Source of the DNA: Candidatus Kapaibacterium sp. | GTDB lineage: Bacteria; Bacteroidota; Ignavibacteria; Kapaibacteriales; NICIL-2 | Assembly: GCA_026003475.1 (NCBI GenBank) | Contig: BPHJ01000001.1 | Coordinates: 1,053,189-1,117,188, forward strand | DNA length: 64,000 nucleotides | Direction: 5' to 3' | Shown: one piece after another, positions 20,335-54,916 of the stretch | Layout of the letters: each line of letters starts with the position of its first letter | Numbering within the stretch: position 1 is the first letter of the stretch | Notes under the pieces: model-generated | What the model was told of the DNA's origin: nothing | Seen by the model: only the letters and a program-made list of their open reading frames with translations | Databases searched by the model: none | Position numbers and translations under genes: made by a program

Positions 20335-20939
20335 TATCCTTGTCCCGCGACAATGCGAAGTGCACGTTTGACCAGTTGTTCGACGTTGGGATGTTCACCA
20401 TCGTCTTGACACTGCTCGAATGCGGTGCGGAGCGCTTTCTCTGCGACTTGGCGGTTGTAACCGAGCACTAACAATGCACTCAGCGATTCGCCCAGCAGTG
20501 ATGCAATATTTCCATCCAAACTTGGTGCTGGTGCAATGGCAGCAATGCGCTCGCGAAGCTCGAGCACAAGACGCTCGGCAGTCTTTCGCCCCACGCCAGG
20601 TATTCGTTGGAGCTGAACGGTATTATTGGCAAGTACTGCGTGTTGCAGCTCAGTTACACTCATCGCCGAGAGTATCCCCAGTGCAATTCGCATTCCGACA
20701 CCCGGTATCGCCGTCAGCAGCAAGAATGCATCACGCTCGCTTTGTGTTGCGAAACCGACAAGCTCCATGCTGTCTTCCCGAACGATCAAATGTGTATGCA
20801 GAAGCGTTTGATGACCGACCGGAGGTAGGGCTTCCGATGTCGTCAGCGATATGTGAACGCGATAACCAACGCCACCGCAGTCAATGATTACATGCGATGG
20901 GGATTTCTCGAGAATTCGTCCTTCGAGTCGGGCAATCAT
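20334..20939 (-). CDS. ruvA: RuvA, Holliday junction branch-migration protein
   Basis: Binds four-way junctions and loads the RuvB helicase; 201 aa. MIARLEGRILEK begins the OB-fold domain. Two helix-hairpin-helix motifs follow (LLTAIPGVGMRIALGIL and LQRIPGVGRKTAERLVLEL). The C-terminal three-helix domain that contacts RuvB is present (LSALLVLGYNRQVAEKAL). It overlaps the phosphatase gene upstream by 4 bp. Confidence 0.97.
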   Translation of the reverse strand: MIARLEGRILEKSPSHVIIDCGGVGYRVHISLTTSEALPPVGHQTLLHTHLIVREDSMELVGFATQSERDAFLLLTAIPGVGMRIALGILSAMSVTELQHAVLANNTVQLQRIPGVGRKTAERLVLELRERIAAIAPAPSLDGNIASLLGESLSALLVLGYNRQVAEKALRTAFEQCQDDGEHPNVEQLVKRALRIVAGQG

Positions 20940-41235: not shown

Positions 41236-41649
41236 ATGAAACCCGACGTTCGCTCCAGTAGCGCGACTGTGCAGATAACCGTAACCCCCGACATGGCAGC
41301 ATCCCTCGACGGACGAGTGATTCATCCCCTCTACGCGACGTTCTGGCTTGCCTACCATGCTGAAGTTGTAGCACGCAAAGCAATTGAACCATTCTTCGAG
41401 GATGGAGAAAACGCCGTTGGTGCTGGCCTTCAGCTTGAGCATCGAGGAATGTGCCCGATCGGTGCCAGTGTGACCGTCACAGCAACAGTCGTTGACTATA
41501 CTGACAATCGCATCGTTTGCTCGATCCTCGCCCGGACAACGCAGACCGAAATCGCACGGGGAACACAAACGCAAATCGTGCTTCCAGCAACCACGATTGC
41601 CGATAAAGTAGCACGTGCGTATGCAATGCACGGACTCCCGTTACCCTAA
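41236..41649 (+). CDS. Small hotdog thioesterase (FlK-like)
   Basis: A 137-aa single hotdog domain. HPLYATFWLAYHAEVVARKA and VGAGLQLEHRGMCPIGASVTVTATV resemble fluoroacetyl-CoA thioesterase-like proteins, where T, E and H form the active site; Thr and His positions look kept, but a Glu aligns only loosely. Substrate unknown. It starts 34 bp from the divergent mtaB ATG and its last 9 bp overlap the convergent SET-domain gene. Confidence 0.8.
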   Translation: MKPDVRSSSATVQITVTPDMAASLDGRVIHPLYATFWLAYHAEVVARKAIEPFFEDGENAVGAGLQLEHRGMCPIGASVTVTATVVDYTDNRIVCSILARTTQTEIARGTQTQIVLPATTIADKVARAYAMHGLPLP

Positions 41650-42150
41650 TCCCATTGCGGCGATCATCTCTTCCCCGTAATCGGCAAGGAGCTCTTCTCC
41701 CGTCTCAATCGGCGCAATTGTCCATACCTCGACGCATTTTCCACTGCTGACGTATTCAACGTTGGGACGTTTCCCGGATCCGTGATACGAACAGATGAAG
41801 CGCGCAACGCCTGCATCTGTCCGCCGAGCGTCAATAATCACCGATGCGGTCAGCTCGATTGCATACGGACCAAACCCCATGTCTGCATAGCGAGCATTGT
41901 AATCAGCCACGCTGAGCCGATCGCCGTCGTAGTTGAACAGGAACACACCCTTTGGCAAATACCGCACGGCAAAGAGCCCCAGTCCTGCTCCCGGAATGGT
42001 TGATGGCCGTACCTCGACACCATGCACCACCCGCGTATGCTGTGCGCAGTATGGATGGGTAATAGTCGTCAAGCGTCGGCAGCGCTCACCATTTGGGTGG
42101 ATAAAAGCACATTGTTTGGTGATGTAGTCGGTAAACCCATTGCGACTCAT
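41641..42150 (-). CDS. SET-domain protein with N-terminal zinc knuckle
   Basis: A 169-aa protein. Residues ~10-40 hold a Cys-x8-Cys-x10-Cys-x2-His arrangement (QCAFIHPNGERC ... YCAQH) resembling DUF5763-type knuckles. The rest is a small SET domain: RPSTIPGAGLGLFA, FNYDGDRLS, KRPNVEYV and GEELLADYGEEM. SET domains methylate lysines using AdoMet; here the usual NHSC pseudoknot motif reads ICSYHGSGKRPN, so activity is unproven. The ATG overlaps the ogg stop by 4 bp, putting it last in the valS run. Confidence 0.82.
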   Translation of the reverse strand: MSRNGFTDYITKQCAFIHPNGERCRRLTTITHPYCAQHTRVVHGVEVRPSTIPGAGLGLFAVRYLPKGVFLFNYDGDRLSVADYNARYADMGFGPYAIELTASVIIDARRTDAGVARFICSYHGSGKRPNVEYVSSGKCVEVWTIAPIETGEELLADYGEEMIAAMGLG

Positions 42151-42770
42151 TTGAGCACGAGACCTGTTTCGATTGCCCATAGCAACAAATCCAAAGCCTG
42201 AAGAGGAAGACCACAGCGGATGGCAAAATTCTGGAATCGTTCTTCGAGCACTTCGTAGTCTTGTCGCGTGCGGGGTGGCATTGGATCAGCAATCACACCG
42301 TACCGTGCAAGATTACGGAGAATGTGACGGTCCAGAATCGCCAGGTCAGCATAGCCAAGATTTCGGAGAACATGACTTGCTTCCTTGAAACCAAGGCCGG
42401 GAACAGTTGTCGCAACCCATGCTCGGAGCACACGTGGATCCGGCTCATCCCGGAGCATCGCAAGGATCGCTGGAAATTGATCGCGAAGCCCCAGCAATCG
42501 TGCTGCTTTCGTACGATGAAAGCGAATGTAGTGCTCGCGCTGAGCCAACAGTGGTGTCGGGTCGAACGGTCGCTCGAAAAACTGCTGTTGCTCGAGTTGC
42601 TCGACGACGTGGAGCGCATGTTGCGCCTTGCTTTGCGGCGTACAAATGCAGTAGCATAATTCGTAGAAAATCTCCTTCTCGCTTTTGGGGGCAGCAAATT
42701 CAGCCAACCGCGCAGAGATCGCTTTTTCGAAACGAGCATAGTAACGATCGAGCGGAGGAGGCAGCATCAT
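42147..42770 (-). CDS. ogg: Ogg2-type N-glycosylase / DNA lyase
   Basis: Excises 8-oxoguanine and nicks the abasic site. A 207-aa HhH-GPD protein of the archaeal/Thermotoga Ogg2 type. YELCYCICTPQSKA, the hairpin VPGLGFKEASHVLRNLG with the catalytic Lys, and LAILDRHILRNL with the catalytic Asp are all present. No Fe-S cysteines follow, unlike endonuclease III. The ATG at 42770 overlaps the stop of the FAD oxidase gene; longer in-frame starts run into that gene. Confidence 0.88.
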   Translation of the reverse strand: MMLPPPLDRYYARFEKAISARLAEFAAPKSEKEIFYELCYCICTPQSKAQHALHVVEQLEQQQFFERPFDPTPLLAQREHYIRFHRTKAARLLGLRDQFPAILAMLRDEPDPRVLRAWVATTVPGLGFKEASHVLRNLGYADLAILDRHILRNLARYGVIADPMPPRTRQDYEVLEERFQNFAIRCGLPLQALDLLLWAIETGLVLK

Positions 42771-45577
42771 CGGGTTATCTGTTCGAGGACACACCAGAGC
42801 GAACGATACTGCTTCCCAGTCGTTGCAGAAAGCTGCCATTGGCAAGGGAGATTTGTGCTCACGTAAAAATCCGCATCCGTCTGGGCAATTTCTGCTTTCT
42901 GCATTGCAAGTGCGGCAGCGGGCAATTCTGGAAACCGTAACCCCCGATCGCCTGCTACTCCACAACAACTTGCCGAATGAGGAACAATCACCGTTGCACC
43001 GATCGAGCGCAGCAAATCCACCAAACGTTCTCGCTCGTGGCTACGGTCGAGCGCGCAGGTTGGATGAAGCACGATCTGGAACTGGCCGCGAATGCGCGCT
43101 GCCAGCTTCTCGAGCAGAATCTCTGCTGCATGGACGGGACCGAGAATCTGCAGCTGTTTCAGTTGTTCGGCACGTTCACGGCTGAGGAGCGGTGGAGCAT
43201 TCCGGAGCGATAAGGCACAGGAGCTGCTATCGGTGATGACCGGCAAGCGACCGCCACGACTTGCTTGGTACGCTGCAGCGATCCATTCTTCGCAGACGCG
43301 GCGATAGGCATCCTTGATTCCCTTCGAATGCCAGGGATGCCCGCAGCAGACCGAACCTGCTTTCTCTGCAACAACGAGGGGTATTCCGGCACGGTCAGCA
43401 AGCGCCAGAAGTGCATTCGCTGTTGAGTCGCCCTCGGGTGAGCGCCCACCAAACCATGCCATGCACGAGGGCACATACACCATTGCCGCATCTGGCGGTG
43501 AGCGGCGTTCTATTCTGTCGGGCAGTCCCATTGTTGGCAACCATGCTGGCGTCCGCAGCCAGCGTGCCAGCCCTGCCGTCAGCGCTGCAACGGGCCTTTC
43601 CCCAACGGTGTCAGCAAGCGCGCGCGCTAAATACAGTGCAGTCCGGTTAGCAGCGATCCACGCAGCGATGTTGTGTGCTGAAGCTTTTGCCAGTGCAGTC
43701 GCTATCGGATGCGAGCGCTTGCCGCGTTGCTCGATGATGAAGTCACCAGTGTTGATTCCAACCGGGCATGCAAGCTGGCACACACCATCGGCGGCGCAGG
43801 TTTGCTCTCCCGCATATCGGAAGCGTCGGCGGAGCGCACGTGCATCCTGGTATTGATGCAATGCTGTTGCGCGCTCAATCTGTCGGAGAGCGACGATCCG
43901 TTGCCGCGGGGATAACGTCACGCCACTCGATGGGCAGGCGCGCTCGCAGAAACCACACTCGATACACCGGTCAATGCTATGGTGCACCGAGGGTAGCTGC
44001 TTGATATTGCGCAGATGAATGCGCTGGTCACGGCTGAGCAGAACATCTCGATTGAGCAGGCGGTCCGGATCGAGGAGTTCTTTGAGCTGCCACATCAGCG
44101 CGGTAGCACGTTCTCCCCACTGACGTTCGAGGTACGGTGCCATGTTCCGACCTGTGCTATGCTCAGCTTTGAGCGAACCATCGTAGCGCTCCACAACGAG
44201 CGCTGCGACCTCATCCATGAAGCGTCCATAGCGTTCAATCGAAGGCTCGGCTGCATCGAGTGCGAAGGCAAAGTGCATGTTTCCATCCCGAGCATGCCCG
44301 AAAATGACCGCATCGCTGAAGCAGAACTCGAGAAGCAGCGATCGCAAATCATGCACTGCTGCGGCAAGGTGCTGCCGCGGGAATGCGACATCTTCGTTGA
44401 TGAGCGCGGTCTCTGGTGGTCGTGCCGCCCCAACGCTCGGCATTGCGCCCTTGCGAAGTTGCCAGAGCAGGTGACGCTCCCGGTCGCTGGCTGCAAGTGT
44501 TAGCGAGGTTGCAGCTGTCTTCTGCGCGAGGGTAGTTACGCGGGAACTCATGGCGGCAGATTGCTCTGGATCATCATAGCGGAATTCAACGAGCAGTGCT
44601 GCCGTGCGCGGGAGCGGTGCGAACGCTCGCCCTCCTGCGTGGAGAGCAATTGCTGCCAGTGTTGCCTGGTCCATCAATTCAATGGCAACGGCACCCTCGG
44701 CATCGAATGCATCGACTGCTGCACACGCATCATGAAGGCTCCGATAGCCCAGAAGCGCGGTTGTCGCATGTGGTGGCTCGTCAATCGTTCGAAGTGTGAC
44801 GTCGGCAATAAACCCCAACGTCCCTTCGCTACCAACGAGCAAATGTTGGAGAATATCTGCTGGACGCTCGAAGTCGAGAAATGCTGCGATTGAATATCCC
44901 ATCGTGTTCTTCAGTCGCGTGCGATGACGAATGATACGCGCAAGCTCGGCATCACCTCGCACCTGATCACGAAGTGCGCAAAGTCCTGCGTACACCGCTG
45001 GCTCTCGCTCGGCAAGGAGTTGATCGGCTGCCTCGAGATCGGATGTATCGAGAACGGTTCCCGACAGAAGAACCAACCTCATCGCTACCAGCGTATGGTA
45101 GGCGTTCTGCGCAATTCCGCAACACATACCGCTGGCGTTGTTTGCAACAATTCCACCGATCGTGCAAGCATCAATCGACGCAGGATCAGGACCAATGCGC
45201 CGGTGGTAGGAGCGCAATCGCCCATTGACATAGCCACCGCGCAGAGTGCACCCTGCACGTACCGCTTGCCCGTTCGATGGGATATGAAGGCAATCGAACC
45301 CACGGAGCACAACCAGAGCATGGTTGGTGACTGCCTGACCGGAAAGACTAGTACCGGCAGCGCGGAACGTCAGCGGTATGCGTTCGCGCCGGCTCCACGC
45401 AAAAAGTTCGATGACATCGGCAATGCTTTCTGCACGAACAACAATCTCGGGCACCAGTTGGTAAAGACTGGCATCGCACGAGTACGCGATGCGATCGAGA
45501 AGATCGGTTGACACCTTGGCTGGTCCGAGAGCGTCTGCCAAACGCGAGGCTGCATGTTCAGCGAGCGCGGCCATCAT
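42767..45577 (-). CDS. FAD-linked oxidase fused to Fe-S/CCG reductase (D-2-hydroxyacid dehydrogenase-like)
   Basis: A 936-aa fusion. The N-terminal FAD-binding type 4 domain (RAAGTSLSGQAV, GGIVANNASGMCCG) is followed by an FAD-oxidase C domain to ~520. Two 4Fe-4S-like sites come next (CIECGFCERACPSSG; CAADGVCQLACPVG), then two CCG domains (VCCGHPWHSKG; SCCGVAGDRG). The layout equals a GlcD-GlcF fusion, as in YdiJ/Dld-type enzymes that oxidise D-lactate or D-2-hydroxyglutarate and pass electrons to quinone. The exact substrate is not clear. It lies 5 bp after the thiolase gene. Confidence 0.88.
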   Translation of the reverse strand: MMAALAEHAASRLADALGPAKVSTDLLDRIAYSCDASLYQLVPEIVVRAESIADVIELFAWSRRERIPLTFRAAGTSLSGQAVTNHALVVLRGFDCLHIPSNGQAVRAGCTLRGGYVNGRLRSYHRRIGPDPASIDACTIGGIVANNASGMCCGIAQNAYHTLVAMRLVLLSGTVLDTSDLEAADQLLAEREPAVYAGLCALRDQVRGDAELARIIRHRTRLKNTMGYSIAAFLDFERPADILQHLLVGSEGTLGFIADVTLRTIDEPPHATTALLGYRSLHDACAAVDAFDAEGAVAIELMDQATLAAIALHAGGRAFAPLPRTAALLVEFRYDDPEQSAAMSSRVTTLAQKTAATSLTLAASDRERHLLWQLRKGAMPSVGAARPPETALINEDVAFPRQHLAAAVHDLRSLLLEFCFSDAVIFGHARDGNMHFAFALDAAEPSIERYGRFMDEVAALVVERYDGSLKAEHSTGRNMAPYLERQWGERATALMWQLKELLDPDRLLNRDVLLSRDQRIHLRNIKQLPSVHHSIDRCIECGFCERACPSSGVTLSPRQRIVALRQIERATALHQYQDARALRRRFRYAGEQTCAADGVCQLACPVGINTGDFIIEQRGKRSHPIATALAKASAHNIAAWIAANRTALYLARALADTVGERPVAALTAGLARWLRTPAWLPTMGLPDRIERRSPPDAAMVYVPSCMAWFGGRSPEGDSTANALLALADRAGIPLVVAEKAGSVCCGHPWHSKGIKDAYRRVCEEWIAAAYQASRGGRLPVITDSSSCALSLRNAPPLLSRERAEQLKQLQILGPVHAAEILLEKLAARIRGQFQIVLHPTCALDRSHERERLVDLLRSIGATVIVPHSASCCGVAGDRGLRFPELPAAALAMQKAEIAQTDADFYVSTNLPCQWQLSATTGKQYRSLWCVLEQITR

Positions 45578-45582
45578 TTGAG

Positions 45583-46788
45583 CTACACGCGTTCGACAAC
45601 GGCAGCAAGTCCCTGCCCAACTCCGATACAGAGCGATGCGACACCGAACTTCTCGCCCGTACGATGGAGAGCGCGGATGAGGGTCCCCATAATCCGGACG
45701 CCGCTCATACCCAGTGGATGACCGATCGCAATAGCGCCACCATGGATGTTGAGCTTCTCAAGCGGGATACCGAGCAACCGTTGGCAGGCGAGTACTTGTG
45801 CGGCAAATGCTTCATTGATCTCGAACAATCCAACATCCTCGATCGAGAGACCTGCTTTTGCCAATGCACCCGGTATTGCTTCCACGGGACCGATGCCCAT
45901 GTATCGAGGATCCACACCAGCTGCATGTCCGGCACAGTAACGCGCCAAGGGCTGGAGCTTGTGCTGGACAACTGCACGTTCGCTGGCTACGATGAGCGCG
46001 CCGGCACCATCATTGAGCGAGGACGAATTCCCCGCTGTGACGGTCCCATTGGCTCGGAATGCTGGCGGTAACTTGGCTAACTTCTCGATTGACGTATCAG
46101 GACGGGGCCCTTCGTCCCGTTCGACAAGCGTTCGATTTCCTTTGTAGTCTTGGATCGGAACGGGGACAATCTCACCAGGCAAGAATCCATCCTCGTATGC
46201 ACGCAAGGCAGATTGATGCGAGCGCAACGCATACTGATCTTGGTCATCACGGTTGATGTGGTAGCGCTCGGCAACGTTCTCGGCTGTCTCGCCCATAGAC
46301 TCAAGGGGAAAAAGCTTCTCCATCGCTGGATTGGGAAAGCGCCACCCCAATGCTGTGTCGTATGCTGTCAAGTTCCCAAAGACAGCGCGTCCACTAACAT
46401 TCTTGGGAAGGACATAGGGCGCGCGCGACATAGACTCAACTCCGCCAGCGATGATCATATCGGCTTCACCAGCACGGATTGCTCGTGCTGCAACGATGAT
46501 TGCCTCCAGCGACGAAGCACAGAGCCGATTGACGGTCACACCTGGAACTCGATGTGGAAATCCCGCCAGCAGCAACGCCATTCGGGCAACGTTGCGATTA
46601 TCTTCACCGGCTTGGTTTGCGCAACCCAGGATGACATCATCAACAGCAGAAGGATCGATCGCTGCATGCTCCACTATGGCACGTAGCACGAGCGCTGCCA
46701 GATCGTCGGCGCGCACCGAACTGAGTGCCCCGCCATACTTTCCTACTGGCGTACGAACTGGACTGCACAGAAAAACATCCTGCATCAT
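45583..46788 (-). CDS. Acetyl-CoA acyltransferase (thiolase, beta-ketoadipyl-CoA thiolase-like)
   Basis: Cleaves 3-ketoacyl-CoA to acetyl-CoA and a shortened acyl-CoA. The 401-aa protein has the nucleophile Cys in VNRLCASSLEAI, the His in GGAIAIGHPLG and the second Cys in CIGVGQG. GCANQAGEDNRNVARMA is characteristic of the PcaF/PaaJ and FadA groups. The usual LCGSGLEA is LCASSLEA. The start could be either ATG of ATGATG at 46788 or 46785, which overlaps the valS stop. Confidence 0.92.
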   Translation of the reverse strand: MMQDVFLCSPVRTPVGKYGGALSSVRADDLAALVLRAIVEHAAIDPSAVDDVILGCANQAGEDNRNVARMALLLAGFPHRVPGVTVNRLCASSLEAIIVAARAIRAGEADMIIAGGVESMSRAPYVLPKNVSGRAVFGNLTAYDTALGWRFPNPAMEKLFPLESMGETAENVAERYHINRDDQDQYALRSHQSALRAYEDGFLPGEIVPVPIQDYKGNRTLVERDEGPRPDTSIEKLAKLPPAFRANGTVTAGNSSSLNDGAGALIVASERAVVQHKLQPLARYCAGHAAGVDPRYMGIGPVEAIPGALAKAGLSIEDVGLFEINEAFAAQVLACQRLLGIPLEKLNIHGGAIAIGHPLGMSGVRIMGTLIRALHRTGEKFGVASLCIGVGQGLAAVVERV

Positions 46789-49499
46789 TGCTGTTCCATA
46801 AGGTGGTGCAAACTCGCGTTGATTTTCTCGAGTGCTTCTGCAAAGGTTGCTTCCTTTGCACGTTCGTTTTCGACGACGTCGGGTTTAGCTCGCTGGAGGA
46901 ACTGCTCGTTGGCCAAGCGTGCTCGGGTTTGCGCAAGCAAGTGTTCCAATCGTGCACGCTCAGCAAGCAAACGCTCTCGCTCCCGTTGGAGTACGTGATC
47001 GCCAACAACAATGAACACTTCGGCATCGCCGACGATGGCACTGAGCGCTCCCCGAGGCTTCTGCGCGTTTGTGTCAACAAGCGTCGGCAGCTCGATACGT
47101 GCCAGTGCGGCAATGAGCGGAGCATTTGCTCTGAGCATCTCTGCAGTGCTCCCATCGGCACGGAATGATGCCGGCGGGAGATCGGTCGGTTTGAGATTCG
47201 CTGTTGCTTTGAGCATGCGGAATTGTTCGATGGCGTTCATCAGCAGTGCCATCTGCTGTTCCACGTGGGGCAGCTCGAAGTGGGGATTGTGTTTCGGCAG
47301 CAACTCTGTGCACAACGAGCGGTCCGGCTCACGCAACCCCAGACGATGCCAGAGCTCTTCCGTGATGAACGGCATGAGCGGGTGAAGCAACCCTAATGCA
47401 TCCTCGAAGACCTGCAGCGAGAACCGAACAAGGCCCTGACGCTGCTGAAGTGATTCAAGCTGCTGCAATCGAATCTTGAGCAGCTCGATATACCAGTCGC
47501 AGTAGTCGTGCCAGAAGAAGTCGTAGAGCGTTCGCACGTAGTCGTTGATTCGGTAGCGTTCCAAGTGCTCATCAACAAGGCGGATCGTTGCATGCAATCG
47601 GGATCGAATCCACCGTTCGGGAAGCCCGAGCTCGTCATCGGTCGGTTGTGGGGTTCGGTCAGCTCCAACGCCGACCTCATCTGCTTTGAGCGCTAAAAAG
47701 CGTGCTGCATTCCACAACTTGTTGGCAAAGTTTCGTCCCAATTCCATCTGCGGAGCATCTTGCGTGACTGGATCAACCGTGATGCGTACGTCCTGACCAA
47801 CCGGTGCCAGGTAGAGCACCGTATAGCGCACGGCATCTGCTCCGTAGGTTGCGATCAACTTGAGTGGGTCTGGCGAGTTACCCAGCGATTTGGACATCTT
47901 GCGTCCCTTGTCGTCGCGGATAATGCTCGTGAAGTACACATCCCGGAAGGGCACGACGCCGCGGAAATAGAGCGATGCCATAATCATGCGCGCGACCCAG
48001 AAGAAGATGATGTCCGGCCCCGTCACAAGCAAGTCCGTCGGAAGGTATGTCCGCAGAATCGGTGTGTCCTCGGTTTTGCCATCGTGGAGCCATCGCATCG
48101 TGGTGAGCATCCAGAGCCAGGACGAAAACCAGGTGTCGAGCGAGTCCTCATCCTGTCGCAGCTCAGCCGTTGGCGACAGTCCCAATTTTTCACGAGCGTG
48201 CTCGGCACTCCGCGCTGCAGTGTAACGCCCGTCGGCAGCATAGTACACAGGGATACGATGTCCCCACCAGAGTTGCCGCGAAATACACCAATCGCGAATG
48301 TTCCGCATCCAGTGTTCGTAGGTCTTGGTCCAGTGCTCTGGGAAAAAGCGTATCGTACCATCGAGAACGACTTGGAGCGCAGGCTCGGCCAGTGGTTGCA
48401 TACGAACAAACCACTGATCGCTGTAGAAGGGTTCGACGGGTTCTCCACTGCGTTCGGAGAATCCGACGTTGTGGACGTAGGGTTGTTCGTTGACTAGCAA
48501 GCCGGCAGCGCGCAAATCCGCGACGATCTGTGTGCGCGCAGCAAAGCGTTCCATGCCTTCGTAGGGACCAGCGACGTGATTGAGCCGTCCGTCCGCGTTG
48601 ATCGAAGCAAGGACCGGCAGCGAATGCCGCACTCCGATCTCGAAATCATTGGGATCATGCGCGGGAGTGATCTTGAGGCAACCTGTCCCGAAGGTAGGAT
48701 CGACATAGGAATCGGCGATGATCGGCACTAGGCGATCGGTCAATGGAACACGAACCTTCTTCCCAATCAGATGCCGATAGCGCTCATCCTCAGGATGCAC
48801 AGCAACTGCGACATCGCCGAAAATCGTCTCCGGTCGCACGGTTGCGACAGCCACAAATTCATCCCCATCGCCTTCGAGCTGATACTTGAGCGTGTAGAGC
48901 GTGTCTTCCACCTGGCGGTACACAACCTCTTCATCCGAGAGAGCCGATTGAAGCACGGGGGACCAGTTGATAATGCGCTTACCGCGATAGATCAAGCCAG
49001 CATCGAACAATCGGATGAACACCTCACGGACAGCATTGGAAGCGCTCTCGTCCATGGTAAAGAGCGTTCGTTTCCAATCACACGAGACGCCCAAGGAGCG
49101 AAGCTGTTCGAGGATGATGCCACCGTACTGTTCCTTCCATTGCCAGACTCGGCGAAGGAATTCCTCCCGTCCAAGGTCCCAGCGCGTTTTCCCCTCTGTG
49201 CGGAGGAGCTCTGCTTCCACCTTGCTCTGCGTTGCGATGCCGGCATGATCAAGCCCAGGGAACCAACAGGCGACCTTTCCCAGCTTGCGATGGTACCGAA
49301 TGTAAAGGTCCTGGATGGTGTTGTTGAGAACATGCCCCATCGTCAGCACACCGGTCACGTTGGGCGGTGGCATCAGGATACTGTAGCGGGGCTGGTCAGT
49401 AGAATCCGGACACGAGAAAAGGTCCAGTTCCAGCCAATGTTCGTACCATGGACGTTCGATTGCGGAAGGGTTGTAGTGGCGATCGAATTGACGCTGCAT
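46785..49499 (-). CDS. valS: Valyl-tRNA synthetase
   Basis: Charges tRNA-Val; 904 aa. The class I catalytic core has PPPNVTGVLTMGHVLNNT as its first signature, where the HIGH motif reads TMGH, and KMSKSLGNS as the second. A CP1 editing domain (~200-340), the anticodon-binding domain and a C-terminal coiled coil are present (RERERLLAERARLEHLLAQT). The ATG at 49499 begins MQRQFDRHYNPSAIE. First gene of a run of five. Confidence 0.96.
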   Translation of the reverse strand: MQRQFDRHYNPSAIERPWYEHWLELDLFSCPDSTDQPRYSILMPPPNVTGVLTMGHVLNNTIQDLYIRYHRKLGKVACWFPGLDHAGIATQSKVEAELLRTEGKTRWDLGREEFLRRVWQWKEQYGGIILEQLRSLGVSCDWKRTLFTMDESASNAVREVFIRLFDAGLIYRGKRIINWSPVLQSALSDEEVVYRQVEDTLYTLKYQLEGDGDEFVAVATVRPETIFGDVAVAVHPEDERYRHLIGKKVRVPLTDRLVPIIADSYVDPTFGTGCLKITPAHDPNDFEIGVRHSLPVLASINADGRLNHVAGPYEGMERFAARTQIVADLRAAGLLVNEQPYVHNVGFSERSGEPVEPFYSDQWFVRMQPLAEPALQVVLDGTIRFFPEHWTKTYEHWMRNIRDWCISRQLWWGHRIPVYYAADGRYTAARSAEHAREKLGLSPTAELRQDEDSLDTWFSSWLWMLTTMRWLHDGKTEDTPILRTYLPTDLLVTGPDIIFFWVARMIMASLYFRGVVPFRDVYFTSIIRDDKGRKMSKSLGNSPDPLKLIATYGADAVRYTVLYLAPVGQDVRITVDPVTQDAPQMELGRNFANKLWNAARFLALKADEVGVGADRTPQPTDDELGLPERWIRSRLHATIRLVDEHLERYRINDYVRTLYDFFWHDYCDWYIELLKIRLQQLESLQQRQGLVRFSLQVFEDALGLLHPLMPFITEELWHRLGLREPDRSLCTELLPKHNPHFELPHVEQQMALLMNAIEQFRMLKATANLKPTDLPPASFRADGSTAEMLRANAPLIAALARIELPTLVDTNAQKPRGALSAIVGDAEVFIVVGDHVLQRERERLLAERARLEHLLAQTRARLANEQFLQRAKPDVVENERAKEATFAEALEKINASLHHLMEQQ

Positions 49500-49529
49500 A
49501 CACTTCGAGTAGGAGACAATCACGGGCTG

Positions 49530-49537
49530 CAAAGATA
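49530..49537 (-). promoter_or_regulatory. Candidate -10 box (TATCTTTG) of valS
   Basis: Fits TAnnTTTG and lies 30 nt before the valS ATG. It is framed by the inverted repeat GGCTGC/GCAGCC (49525-49543), which may be an operator or a short hairpin after the PorU stop. No U-tract follows. Confidence 0.4.
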
Positions 49538-49553: not shown

Positions 49554-52500
49554 TTACTGTAGAACGATAAGCACCCCACCAACTGCATCGGTAGCTCCCA
49601 GGGGCTCCAGCCACAGACGCCAGTAGTACGCACCGCTCTGAAGTGAACCACCGCTGGACTGGTCAATCAACGGGAATGCAATGTGATTGATCCCATTGAC
49701 GACAGTCACAGCCGCACCGTACACTTTCTTGCCCAAAACATCGAAGACCTCCAGACGCGCCGGTGCGCTCTGCTCGAAGCCATGGTAGGTGGCGGTGACA
49801 ACTGCTTCTTGGCCAACAGCACACGGATTAGGAGACACGGCCACACTATCAATCCACAGTGAGGATGGCACCACCAGCACAAACTGTGCTGTCGTGGTAT
49901 TGCCTGTAGCATCGCGGGCAGTAACCAAAAGAATGTTGACCCCCTGCTCCAGTTCAACTGCTGTTGAGACTGCTGCGCGTGCGAGCGGTTCAGCACTCCA
50001 GCGTTCGCTTTGCGGAAGTGCCGAGGTCGGAAAGAACGTGTACGGTTGCGTACCTTGAGGAAGCCGCAGTCCGTTGAGGCGCAACACGATCGCAGTGCTA
50101 TCGGTGATCGCAACACGCGCCGAATCGAGCAGTGCACACTCCAGCAAAACATGCTGCGCGACGATGGTCGTATCCCCAGCCGGAACACCATTGGCAAGCA
50201 ACAGCACTCGTGGCGGATCGCTATCAGAGCGAATCCGAAGCATCTGTGATGAAAAATTGTTGAATTGGTACTGGTCACGTTGCGGCACAAGCGTGAGCTG
50301 AAGCGTTACAGCGTCTGGTAAATCAAGTGTTGGAAGCAGTGCGTTGAGCGTTGTATCGCCGAGACCAACGGTGAACTCCGCGGGCAAGGTCTCGATCGTG
50401 ATCGCCTCTCCCCCAACACCGATCACCTGCCATTGCCCGGTCATCAATCGAACTCCGGAGCGCGAGACCAGGTTGATCACGCGAGCACGGATAGCGACCG
50501 TATCGCCACGCAGCGGCGATCGGTCACCAACATCGAGTGCGGCTGCAATCTCAGGCAAAGGAGTGTATTCCACCAGAGCCGATGCAATCGTGCACGGGGT
50601 AAAATCGGTGCTGTCGCGTTGGAGTGTACAGACAATCTGAAGGTAGGGGTACTCGGCAGCATCGAGATCAGCAAGCGACAAGAAACTGCTATCGCTCGAT
50701 GCAACAATCTGCGTCTGGTCATTGGGAGCTTTGCTGCCATACGCTGCGAGCTGCAGTCGTGCGGTCGTCAGTGATACATCAAGGCGGGCGCTCTTCCACT
50801 GTTCGGCTGGTCCTGCTGGCGGTAGCACAAGCTGTGCTTCCAAGGGAAATATCGGTAGCTCAAAAACTGCCGAGATGGTATCGCTTCCCTGTGTGGCGTC
50901 GTCGATACCGAGGCGTTCAAGCATGAACGGACGGTTGCCCGACCTCATCCCCACAAACAGGTAGGAGCGCGTTGCATTCAGTGAGTCGGCGTATCGCGCT
51001 CCAAACTCTGCAAGAACGGTGCGAAACGCTGCCGCGTATTGCCGAAACTGCAGCGCCCAGGCTCCACCGCAAGAGGTCAAGAGAACGTAATCACGATCAG
51101 CAACGGAATCCCGCAAGAATTCGATGAGTTCCGGTGCACCACCATTGCTTCGATTGATAGGTGTCGTCGTCCAGGTTGCGTACCAGCGCACCGCCTTCAC
51201 TGCTCCGGTGTACGGCGAAAGAACTGCAAGATGAACGCCGATCTCATCGTTGCGTTCGCTGGCTACATTTACCCCTCCAATCCGAAGGCGATATGCTGGC
51301 TGTATCGGCAGTCGTACTGAATCACGTTGATCGAACTGGTATCCACCTGCCGAGAGCAGCTCGACGCCAATGGACTGTGCGAAGGTTAGGGTCCCCGATG
51401 GAGTTTGTTCCATTCCACTAACGATGCTCCGGGACCAAGCGCCACCCCCGACTCCCTGCACGTGGTCTATTCGATTGACCGCTGCTTGCTCGGTAATCAC
51501 GATTGGAATGATCAAAGGTGGTGTCCAAACTTGGCGCTCGGTATTGTATCCACGGATAACGATGCGGTATTCCCTGCCAACCGTGAGCAGGGGCGGAAAG
51601 TGCCATTGACAATGCGTAGGGAGCACATTCACCGGATATTCCGCACTCGTGGCGAGGGTATCGCCACGATCAGAAAGGAGCAACGCTTCGTAGGTGAAGG
51701 GAGCCGCTGTGGCAAACGGATTCAGGAACCGAACGATGGTATCGGTTGGCGCAATATTCCACCCAGCTTGCGGCTCGACAGGATAGAGTTGTTCGGCATA
51801 CACATACAGTGGAATGTCCAATTGCGCCATTGGTCCGCTCCTCCCTACCGTGTCAATCTCAATGTGGAGGGCATGGCTGCCTGGCATGTTGTGAATGGGG
51901 AGTACAAACCGTAAGCGGACTGGATAGCATAGCTGCGAGAGCACAGTGCGGAACGTATCGCGCTGCTGCTGATAGGTTCGAACCAACCGAACTTCGATCG
52001 TGGAATCCGTATATACACCAGCGTTGAACGCCATTACCTCGACAATAGCACTTTCAGCATTGGTAGTCAAGGTCGGTGCATCAGGGACACTCCGGATCGT
52101 CAGCGATGAGCCATCCAGCACAGGATGTGGTAGTGTATCAATCGGAATCCGGGTAAGAGGATCCCCAAAAAGTGTTGTCTGGAGAATGGTGTTGATCGCC
52201 AGTTGCGTACCGTCGAACAAGTAGAGCTTTGCACGATTGAGGACGTCTCCGAGCGCGCGGCTGGTGCTTCGTGCTAAGGATGCGAAGATGCCGGCGTTGA
52301 CGATGTCGTCATAGGAACGGATGCCGAATCCTGTCGTTGCAATGACCGCGACCATCCCCGCCGATGGCGCCGCCAGAAAATCTTCTCCCAATGCTTGGAT
52401 GGCTGGTTCTGCAAAAGCCCCAATTTGACAAGAAAAACTCGCCAGAATCGGATACCTGCCCCGATTCCGCAGGCGTTCAGGCTCCCATCCAGCAACTTCC

Positions 52501-54764
52501 AGTGTGCGTGGTGCACCGTGACCGATGTAATTGACCCACACTGCACCGCTGTTGATCGTATTGACGATTGCTGTGGGTACAGGCGAACCATCGGCAGTGC
52601 CAGCATAGAACGATGCCAGCACTGTATCGGCACAGAGGGCGCGTTGGTACGGATCAACCAGCAGAGGAAGCAGCGAATAGACCACCGATTCGTAGAAGTC
52701 CACTTGCTCGGCTGGATCAGCACCGCCCGTGATGAAAAGGAAGCGTTTGTGCCAACGAGCAGGTGGGAGCGTGTCATACTCGATGAGTTTATCAACGATC
52801 GCATCGGCTTGCACTAACGTGGTCACGGGAAGTCTGCCAATGCTCATCTCCGGAATGTAGTCATCACCTTCCAAGAGTGTGTACCAGAAATCGCTGACTG
52901 GCTTTCCATAACTCGGGATGAAGTCCTCGTTGATCGTGGTCGGAGAGACGCGGCGGGGATCCCAACTTGCATCGCCCATGAGCAGAATTGCACGTGGAGG
53001 CGGAGCTCCCCACTGTCGGTAGGCATACCGAAGAAATGCTTTGATTGCATGCGGCGATTTCTCACCCCGGCCAAAGGCATCGAAGATGTCTTGCACTTCG
53101 ACGACACGCGCACGCACATGATGATGCTGCGACCGATAACGCGCTAATCGCTCTGCGGCAGCACGAAAAAAGCGATGGGTGATGATGACATAATCTGCGC
53201 GGTTGGTGTCGGCGTAGAGGTCGCTTCCTCCACATGGGCGAATGCGCGCATGTTCAATCGCAGTACTACCTGTTGCCACGAGAGCATGGTCACCACGCGA
53301 GAGCGGAACGACAACGCGGTATGCGTTTCCACGTTCGGTCGGCACCCAAGCGATGAGCACTGCTGCGCCCGATGCCAGTGCCTCCTGGTACTGGAGCGGC
53401 TGGCCACGCACACCACAACCAACGTAGGCGACGCCAGAGGTAATTGCTGAAACGGACGAACTCCCTTCGCTGGTGAGCTGATCGCGGAGTGTTTGATCGA
53501 GTGTTTGCCCATCAGCGATCAGTATGGCGAACGGCGTCCCGACTGGCAACGCCCGGATCAGCCCCGCAACCGTTGGTGCATTCTCGGAAAAGAGCTGGAC
53601 CGTTTGCTGCTCATCAAGCCATGCGACGGTGATCGGTTGGCGCGTCGTTACAATTGCCGTATCGCCGATCGCTATACCCAAACGCTGTGGGGATTGCCGT
53701 GCAGAGAGTCGAAAGAGGACCCCACGCTCACCGGTCATCCATCGCCACGTTCGGCGCAGGGTGTCGAATACCAGCGCGCGCGATGAAACAAAATTGAGCA
53801 GCTCAAGCTCTTCGTCCTGGGTTGATTGACACCTTCCCGCAAGGTAATCGCCAGTGGCAACAGCTCGTTCTGTTCCACGTGTTGTGATGTAGTCCACTGC
53901 TTCTGCAGCGATAGTCGTTGCGGTATTCTGGAAAACGAGTGAATCCACAATGCAGCCATCACGGCGGGGACGGAGCACAAACCCAAGGGTATCGTAGCGC
54001 GGTCCATCGAAGGTGGTGCTATCGCGAAGGATTCCGCCATAGCGGCACTGAAGGCGATGGTCGGGGGCGGTGAAGATGTCGTCGCTGATAGCCGAATAGA
54101 CAATCTTCACCTCGATGCTATCATCACTGGAGGGTTCGGGTGCGACCGGCAAGAACGTCGAAAAGGGACGAAGTGGATACGTTATCGCCCATGCCCATCC
54201 CTCACCAGGCACGGTTTCGGTGACGAATGTGCTCTGCGTTTGACTGTAGCGATCGTTGTCGAGCCATCCTTGAACGTATTCGCGATCGTACTCGATGTGG
54301 CGTTCCACAACAATGTGGCGGCGTAATGGCAGCCCTTCTCCTGTTGCGGTATCTAGCTGCAGCCGGTATGGTGGCTGCGATGGATCGTACCAGACCTCAA
54401 AAGCAGCACGATCGGTGTACGCGTCGAAGTAGGTTGTATCCCCGGTCGGATGAGAACCAACAAAGAGAAGTGTATCATCATCGGTCAAACGACCATCGTG
54501 ATCGACCAGTGCAACGGGTATGAAATGTCCTTTTCGGAGAAGGTGTAATCCATCGCTTGGCAAGTTCCGCAGCATCGGAGCAACGCCGAGCAGTTCGGAT
54601 ACGAGGAGCTGGGCAACGCCATCTCGCGTAGTTTCGATGTACGCAAGCGGAAGTTGTTGCACTGTGGTGACTCTAGGGCGAGCATGCGGAGTGGCAGTCT
54701 GTGCTTGCGCCGCCGAATACCAACCGACAACGAACAGCAGAGCAAGACAACAGATTCGCAGCAT
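49554..54764 (-). CDS. porU: PorU-like T9SS C-terminal signal peptidase (C25 gingipain family)
   Basis: Sorting peptidase that removes the C-terminal domain from T9SS cargo at the outer membrane. The ATG at 54764 gives a signal peptide (MLRICCLALLFVVGWYSAAQAQ). The C25 domain spans ~530-860 (YVIITHRFF, ILLMGDASWDPR, SIGRLPVTT). The His/Cys dyad is His749 in YIGHGAP and Cys779 in SFSCQIGAF. Long beta-rich regions follow, and a C-terminal sorting-like domain with SPNPCAVGQ and SGAYYWRLWL. At 1736 aa it is much longer than P. gingivalis PorU (about 1160). No other T9SS component is in the window. Confidence 0.88.
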   Translation of the reverse strand: MLRICCLALLFVVGWYSAAQAQTATPHARPRVTTVQQLPLAYIETTRDGVAQLLVSELLGVAPMLRNLPSDGLHLLRKGHFIPVALVDHDGRLTDDDTLLFVGSHPTGDTTYFDAYTDRAAFEVWYDPSQPPYRLQLDTATGEGLPLRRHIVVERHIEYDREYVQGWLDNDRYSQTQSTFVTETVPGEGWAWAITYPLRPFSTFLPVAPEPSSDDSIEVKIVYSAISDDIFTAPDHRLQCRYGGILRDSTTFDGPRYDTLGFVLRPRRDGCIVDSLVFQNTATTIAAEAVDYITTRGTERAVATGDYLAGRCQSTQDEELELLNFVSSRALVFDTLRRTWRWMTGERGVLFRLSARQSPQRLGIAIGDTAIVTTRQPITVAWLDEQQTVQLFSENAPTVAGLIRALPVGTPFAILIADGQTLDQTLRDQLTSEGSSSVSAITSGVAYVGCGVRGQPLQYQEALASGAAVLIAWVPTERGNAYRVVVPLSRGDHALVATGSTAIEHARIRPCGGSDLYADTNRADYVIITHRFFRAAAERLARYRSQHHHVRARVVEVQDIFDAFGRGEKSPHAIKAFLRYAYRQWGAPPPRAILLMGDASWDPRRVSPTTINEDFIPSYGKPVSDFWYTLLEGDDYIPEMSIGRLPVTTLVQADAIVDKLIEYDTLPPARWHKRFLFITGGADPAEQVDFYESVVYSLLPLLVDPYQRALCADTVLASFYAGTADGSPVPTAIVNTINSGAVWVNYIGHGAPRTLEVAGWEPERLRNRGRYPILASFSCQIGAFAEPAIQALGEDFLAAPSAGMVAVIATTGFGIRSYDDIVNAGIFASLARSTSRALGDVLNRAKLYLFDGTQLAINTILQTTLFGDPLTRIPIDTLPHPVLDGSSLTIRSVPDAPTLTTNAESAIVEVMAFNAGVYTDSTIEVRLVRTYQQQRDTFRTVLSQLCYPVRLRFVLPIHNMPGSHALHIEIDTVGRSGPMAQLDIPLYVYAEQLYPVEPQAGWNIAPTDTIVRFLNPFATAAPFTYEALLLSDRGDTLATSAEYPVNVLPTHCQWHFPPLLTVGREYRIVIRGYNTERQVWTPPLIIPIVITEQAAVNRIDHVQGVGGGAWSRSIVSGMEQTPSGTLTFAQSIGVELLSAGGYQFDQRDSVRLPIQPAYRLRIGGVNVASERNDEIGVHLAVLSPYTGAVKAVRWYATWTTTPINRSNGGAPELIEFLRDSVADRDYVLLTSCGGAWALQFRQYAAAFRTVLAEFGARYADSLNATRSYLFVGMRSGNRPFMLERLGIDDATQGSDTISAVFELPIFPLEAQLVLPPAGPAEQWKSARLDVSLTTARLQLAAYGSKAPNDQTQIVASSDSSFLSLADLDAAEYPYLQIVCTLQRDSTDFTPCTIASALVEYTPLPEIAAALDVGDRSPLRGDTVAIRARVINLVSRSGVRLMTGQWQVIGVGGEAITIETLPAEFTVGLGDTTLNALLPTLDLPDAVTLQLTLVPQRDQYQFNNFSSQMLRIRSDSDPPRVLLLANGVPAGDTTIVAQHVLLECALLDSARVAITDSTAIVLRLNGLRLPQGTQPYTFFPTSALPQSERWSAEPLARAAVSTAVELEQGVNILLVTARDATGNTTTAQFVLVVPSSLWIDSVAVSPNPCAVGQEAVVTATYHGFEQSAPARLEVFDVLGKKVYGAAVTVVNGINHIAFPLIDQSSGGSLQSGAYYWRLWLEPLGATDAVGGVLIVLQ

Positions 54765-54830
54765 ACAGACTCGCAGGAGGTGTCCATTCTGCTGGCAATA
54801 ATGCATAGCACGTTCGGTGTGTTTCGCCAA

Positions 54831-54881
54831 GACAAAAGCAATACAGCGCTGGACCACTACTGCCAGGCCCAGCGCTGTATT
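54831..54881 (-). terminator. Terminator-like hairpin after the unknown membrane protein gene
   Basis: Perfect 13-bp inverted repeat AATACAGCGCTGG (54840-54852) / CCAGCGCTGTATT (54869-54881), 16-nt loop, 35 bp after the stop at 54917. On the minus strand it is followed by TGCTTTTGTC, a broken U-tract. The stem is strong; the tail is weak. Confidence 0.6.
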
Positions 54882-54916
54882 CATTGTTGCATGTTCAAGA
54901 GAGCGGTTGTGGTACG

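Follow-up and report, generated by a model that had tools for sequence, protein, structure and literature searches.

Gene order at the locus

The window, by which we mean the whole stretch of 64,000 nucleotides analyzed here, carries on its minus strand a closely packed run of genes in the order valS, thiolase, FAD oxidase, ogg and SET, with gaps or overlaps ranging from a few bases to 34. The run comprises the valyl-tRNA synthetase gene valS (46785–49532; Pfam tRNA-synt_1 and Val_tRNA-synt_C), a thiolase gene (45583–46788; Thiolase_N and Thiolase_C), a gene for an FAD-linked oxidase with Fe-S and CCG domains identified by Pfam (42767–45577), the gene ogg for a 207-aa OGG2-type 8-oxoguanine DNA glycosylase (42147–42770; Ogg-HhH) and, last, a gene for a small protein with a Pfam SET domain (41641–42180), which is 179 aa long when read from a conserved upstream ATG and 169 aa if started at the ATG at 42150. 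On the plus strand, a gene for a FlK-type thioesterase (41236–41649; Pfam FlK) converges on the SET gene, and the ends of the two genes share 9 bp (41641–41649). Just upstream of valS, the minus strand encodes a 1776-aa protein with Peptidase_C25 (gingipain-type) and ILEI domains (49554–54884). The genome of the window, a single contig of 2.16 Mb, contains one SET match. A promoter and terminator scan was uninformative, returning 4 promoter-like sites against 3.0 expected and 2 terminator-like sites against 4.9 expected.

The protein encoded by ogg scored 152 bits against the OGG2 profile PF22175 (Ogg-HhH; cut-off 27, E 1.6e-44), and 163.5 against the NCBIfam equivalog PRK01229, under the cut-off of 183. 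The Lys of G-x-G-x-KEASH and the Asp of DRH, which we take to be the catalytic residues of HhH-GPD enzymes, are conserved in all eight aligned ogg proteins. The profile match bears out an earlier note on this DNA, which had named the gene beside SET an Ogg2 glycosylase; SET lies directly downstream.

A finger-SET protein conserved in two families

The SET protein was found in all eight genomes of the window's family and all ten of a sister family among 61 relatives, while the remaining 43 gave one weak match to a different SET type. Of these orthologues, 17 are full length and one is cut by a contig end; in that genome (G058) the SET part lies on contig C68 (L018/L048) and a finger-like part on C22. 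In searches of samples drawn from the class (294 genomes) and the phylum (395), matches starting before profile position 12 occurred in these two families only, and one frame-broken match outside them starts at position 12. The two families form a clade with support of 97/95, and the window's family alone one of 100/99, in a midpoint-rooted tree with one long branch flagged elsewhere. A pattern scan of genome contigs recovered 4 relatives; among viral contigs there were 91 pattern hits and no relative by tblastn, and PHROGs gave no family. One genome of the window's family (G007) has four SET matches, on contigs C13, C152, C31 and C18, compared with one in the genome of the window.

The small SET domain proposed in the earlier note (residues 66–169; 41674–41985, minus strand, from the Pfam match range and the AlphaFold model) scored 40.1 bits against Pfam SET (PF00856; cut-off 22.4, E 5.1e-10). 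Pfam SET matched 17 of 17 aligned sequences, and those listed individually were over the cut-off. The same note had read SYHGSGKRPN in place of the NHSC motif, and alignments confirm this at residues 131–140: the variant segment CSYHGSGKRPN (residues 130–140; 41761–41793, minus strand) stands where canonical SETs have NHSCxPN, the H/RxxNHxC motif is absent from residues 127–140 (RFICSYHGSGKRPN), and NHSC is replaced in 17 of 17. What replaces it is itself conserved. The pattern C-x-[YF]-[HQ]-G-S-x4-N is kept in all 17 sequences of both families, with C130, G134, S135 and N140 invariant. When same-phylum and canonical SET types were added to give 33 aligned SETs, the canonical NHSC asparagine aligned with C130, followed by an insertion of a few residues, and S60, G66, G68, Y84, G86, N140, E163 and Y168 were invariant. 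Tyr168 (codon 41677–41679, minus strand) lies where SET domains have their catalytic tyrosine, a residue whose role in EZH2 is reported (PMC3868588).

Strong purifying selection acts on the SET gene. Its dN, computed with the first 12 residues left out, was lower than the dN of ogg in all 15 genome pairs of the genus (0.133–0.226 against 0.235–0.340 outside the closest pair), with dS saturated in 9 of the 15 SET pairs and 8 of the 15 ogg pairs. Because the motif is kept in all 17 aligned finger-SET sequences, Tyr168 in every aligned SET and SET dN lies below ogg dN throughout, the variant motif is not a sign of decay.

Ahead of the SET domain lies a C3H zinc-finger motif, C24-x9-C34-x10-C45-x2-H48 (42037–42111, minus strand). 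The earlier note had described a Cys/His finger with a first spacing of x8; the ligands are indeed present, and the first spacing in the window is x9. The four ligand positions are invariant in the 17 aligned sequences of both families, the window's included, and x8 instead of x9 occurs in all nine sister-family sequences and in one genome of the alignment (G006). The spacing CX9CX10CX2H is identical to that of the WRC finger of plant GRF proteins, of the WRC/HRT type, a C3H finger described as binding DNA (PMC7380329). Searched at E up to 1, Pfam WRC (PF08879) did not match the protein of the window; it matched 5 of the 17 finger-SET sequences weakly (best E 0.0077), and all scores shown were under the cut-off of 28.6 bits, the best relative reaching 16.3.

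An AlphaFold model built from 33 sequences (pLDDT 86.6, pTM 0.81) predicts the finger region (residues 21–60) at a pLDDT of about 97 and residues 131–140 at 92; it supersedes a first model from 17 sequences (pLDDT 75.6), with which a PRC2 chain ranked first. With VIA-align, where rows within 1 Z count as tied, the top row was PRDM9 with AdoHcy (4c1q; Z 14.9, 131 aligned, 2.9 Å), tied with PRDM5 (6xaz; 14.0) and PRC2 (5kkl; 14.0) and followed by PRDM3 (6xau; 13.5). Z was at least 8 in 413 of 779 aligned chains, and the 50 rows listed are SET/PR structures. Foldseek placed MLL1 first and the PRDM9 entry 4c1q 35th. The cofactor-free model thus has a predicted SET fold that lies near SET/PR enzymes with bound cofactor. 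The earlier note had counted a predicted structure lacking an AdoMet pocket as an outcome against its inference, and this outcome did not arise: the Tyr168 position is kept, and the likeness to AdoHcy-bound enzymes suggests a pocket.

Probable activity of the variant SET domain

Two lines of literature bear on a SET domain of this kind. Most PR domains are without NHxC, and several of these are reported as methyltransferases (PMC4146578, PMC4620005). The same papers report that many PR proteins without H/RxxNHxC appear to have no intrinsic activity, and that the FOG1 PR domain did not bind AdoHcy; its authors suggested that PR activity observed might stem from co-purified proteins. As some such PR domains are reported active and others apparently inactive, the absence of NHSC settles nothing either way.

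The earlier note had suggested that the fold may have lost activity. In its fullest form this would leave the SET domain catalytically dead, a module that binds proteins or methyl-lysine alongside a second binding part, the finger. The replacement of NHSC in all 17 aligned finger-SET sequences, together with the apparently inactive PR proteins and the FOG1 result (PMC4620005, PMC4146578), speaks for such a module. Against it, the Tyr168, GxG and N140 positions are invariant in all 33 aligned SETs, these positions are retained in SETs of the same phylum that carry a different NHSC variant, and the top structural row is an AdoHcy-bound enzyme. We consider a dead SET domain unlikely, if still a serious possibility. 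Lost activity is not the reading we favor, given that the variant motif is conserved, the tyrosine position is kept and some PR domains lacking NHxC are reported active (PMC4146578). Judged from sequence and model, the finger-SET protein is real and conserved, and it is more probably active than inactive.

The junction with ogg and the conservation of the neighborhood

In the six genomes of the genus, junction sequences place the conserved SET start inside ogg. The upstream ATG (42180 in the window; MGN...) is common to all six and gives an overlap of 34 bp with the end of ogg (42147–42180, minus strand). This ATG exists because a Leu codon of ogg ends in A, as it does in six of six genomes, compared with 11 of the 137 remaining Leu codons in these ogg genes; since the six genomes are related, these A-ending codons are not six independent events. 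The earlier note had described a 4-bp ATGA overlap between the two genes. An ATGA is present in the window (42150–42147), where it joins SET Met11 to the ogg stop, and is confined to it: the five other genomes have TAG as the ogg stop, and at that point their SET frame lacks an ATG. We therefore rejected ATGA as the general SET start. A regular ATGA overlap of 4 bp is found one junction upstream, between the FAD oxidase gene and ogg (42770–42767). This overlap (42767–42770, minus strand) recurs in all seven genomes of the family that have both genes adjacent. In two other genera of the family ogg and SET do not overlap, SET starting 12 and 37 bp after ogg. SET is the last gene of a tight run in the window's family and starts within ogg in the window's genus, so that the two are probably expressed together.

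That ogg adjoins SET in all eight genomes of the window's family, across three genera, makes the neighborhood more than chance and carries the SET–ogg pair beyond the window's genome; restriction to that genome, the other outcome that the earlier note had counted against its inference, therefore did not arise. Of the two families, the pair was found in this one only. In the sister family OGG2 is present in nine of ten genomes and on the same contig as SET in none of the nine, and one genome (G017; a single contig rated 100% complete) has SET and no OGG2 match. There, SET follows a TonB-receptor cluster gene in nine of nine loci with upstream sequence and has a fatty-acid hydroxylase gene next to it in six of ten, both neighbor functions being taken from one representative locus. 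The sister-family arrangement means that the SET protein does not need ogg as a neighbor. In the class survey (294 genomes), SET matched in 93 and OGG2 in 204 (164 over the cut-off, with places listed for 149); both genes were placed in 38. They were adjacent in five of these 38, all five from the window's family, against 0 of 13 in the sister family and 0 of 20 in the others, and we rejected SET–ogg as a widespread pairing. Literature searches on SET domains with 8-oxoguanine, on SET in Kapabacteria/Ignavibacteria/Chlorobi and on OGG2 neighborhoods returned no paper on the SET–ogg pair, which is no proof that there is none.

As a control for synteny we used 23 protein pieces, giving 12 directly adjacent pairs without ogg–SET that were counted manually; a pair was scored as kept when both best matches lay no more than 5 kb apart on one contig, and two pairs with the gene at 20936, which was not clearly found, were dropped. 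Nine of 12 pairs were kept in G007 and seven of 12 in G006, a fragmented assembly in which pairs split over contigs were scored as not kept. The conservation of ogg–SET over three genera is near the general level of the region. Since most neighboring pairs in this region stay together within the family, the adjacency counts for less.

These data bear on the view that SET works with OGG2, methylating OGG2 itself or a DNA-bound protein in 8-oxoguanine repair, with the overlap fixing the ratio of the two products. The constant neighborhood within the family speaks for this view, as does the start inside ogg throughout the genus, and the finger has the spacing of a known DNA-binding finger. In G007, moreover, the best oxidase match lies on another contig than ogg–SET, and the MiaB-like and thiolase genes found on either side of the block in the window sit together on a third contig without it. 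Set against this are the separate contigs of SET and ogg in all nine sister-family genomes with OGG2, the genome with SET and no OGG2 match, the lack of adjacency in all 33 genomes from other families for which the class survey placed both genes, the background conservation of other pairs in G007 and G006, the presence of valS, thiolase and oxidase in the same run, and the gaps in place of an overlap in two other genera. On balance we hold a working partnership with OGG2 to be very improbable. The functional coupling to 8-oxoguanine repair inferred in the earlier note is not established, with the sister-family SET apart from ogg and other pairs conserved about as often, and because the adjacency is found in one of two families the link to DNA repair is unproven. 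The ogg link is a family-level operon arrangement. The long overlap and ambiguous start might suggest that annotation or overlap created the pair as an artefact, or that SET is a decaying fragment; this is next to impossible given an orthologue in each of the 18 genomes of the two families, purifying selection and a complete domain.

Relation to known SET proteins and proposed role

With SET lysine methyltransferases (PF00856; MLL, EZH2, SET8 and Legionella LegAS4) the window protein shares GxG, Tyr168, GEEL-x2-DY and the predicted fold. It differs from them in a longer conserved segment in place of NHSC, in its own N-terminal finger and in lacking a cysteine-rich post-SET, the chain ending 11 residues after Tyr168. 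PRDM proteins, PRDM9 especially, are among the top structural rows, lack NHxC as the window protein does and also carry zinc fingers or knuckles (PMC4620005). Unlike them, the window protein is bacterial and has no finger array, and its match to the PR profile is below the cut-off and unspecific: it scored 13.9 bits against PF21549 (cut-off 27), and all 17 finger-SET sequences matched below the cut-off. In a control scan the profile also matched five of five bacterial SETs (four NHSC- and one NHC-type, 15.5 to 27.2 bits), and we rejected PR-profile likeness as a special sign since these controls match with equal or higher scores; the match is no mark of special kinship.

In the phylum search, the SET group nearest after the finger-SET proteins was a set of ANDA-motif SETs (L080–L084) from the same phylum, probably Bacteroidota. 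NHSC is likewise replaced in these proteins, with an insertion at the same place as in the window protein; they differ in having no zinc finger and, in several, a Lys-rich C-terminal tail. ANDA together with a Lys-rich, histone-H1-like C-terminal tail was seen in L080:1483-2028, L082:1480-2010, L083:1477-1965 and L084:1378-1884. L080, at 28.6 bits, also exceeded the 27-bit cut-off of Pfam PRDM2_PR, as did L069 and L071. The archaeal Go1-SET of Methanosarcina mazei, a prokaryotic SET like the window protein and likened to it by description rather than sequence, reportedly methylates MC1-alpha, a DNA-binding protein (PMC3980110).

We lean towards the reading that the window protein is a vertically inherited finger-SET lysine methyltransferase of a distinct subfamily, which combines a C3H (WRC/HRT-like) finger with a SET domain lacking NHSC. 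In such an enzyme, AdoMet would bind in the SET pocket, where the variant segment at residues 130–140 may stand in for NHSC, by likeness to active PR domains, in which other residues must serve. Tyr168 would assist methyl transfer onto a lysine, and the finger, presumably zinc-bound, may tether the enzyme either to DNA or to a protein partner bearing the target lysine. In the window's family, SET would share an operon with ogg by lineage history. A more specific form, in which a finger-guided, PR-like lysine methyltransferase with a non-NHSC motif III marks a DNA-bound protein and, in one family, shares a unit of transcription and translation with 8-oxoguanine repair, strikes us as improbable.

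The review of bacterial SET proteins deals mainly with proteins that pathogens and symbionts direct at host chromatin, with Go1-SET in addition (PMC3980110). Bacterial SET proteins are widespread, and the finger-SET protein, which occurs in all 18 genomes of the two families, would suit the study of SET roles inside bacteria. Its conserved non-NHSC motif offers a natural test of which residues the SET/PR fold needs for AdoMet.
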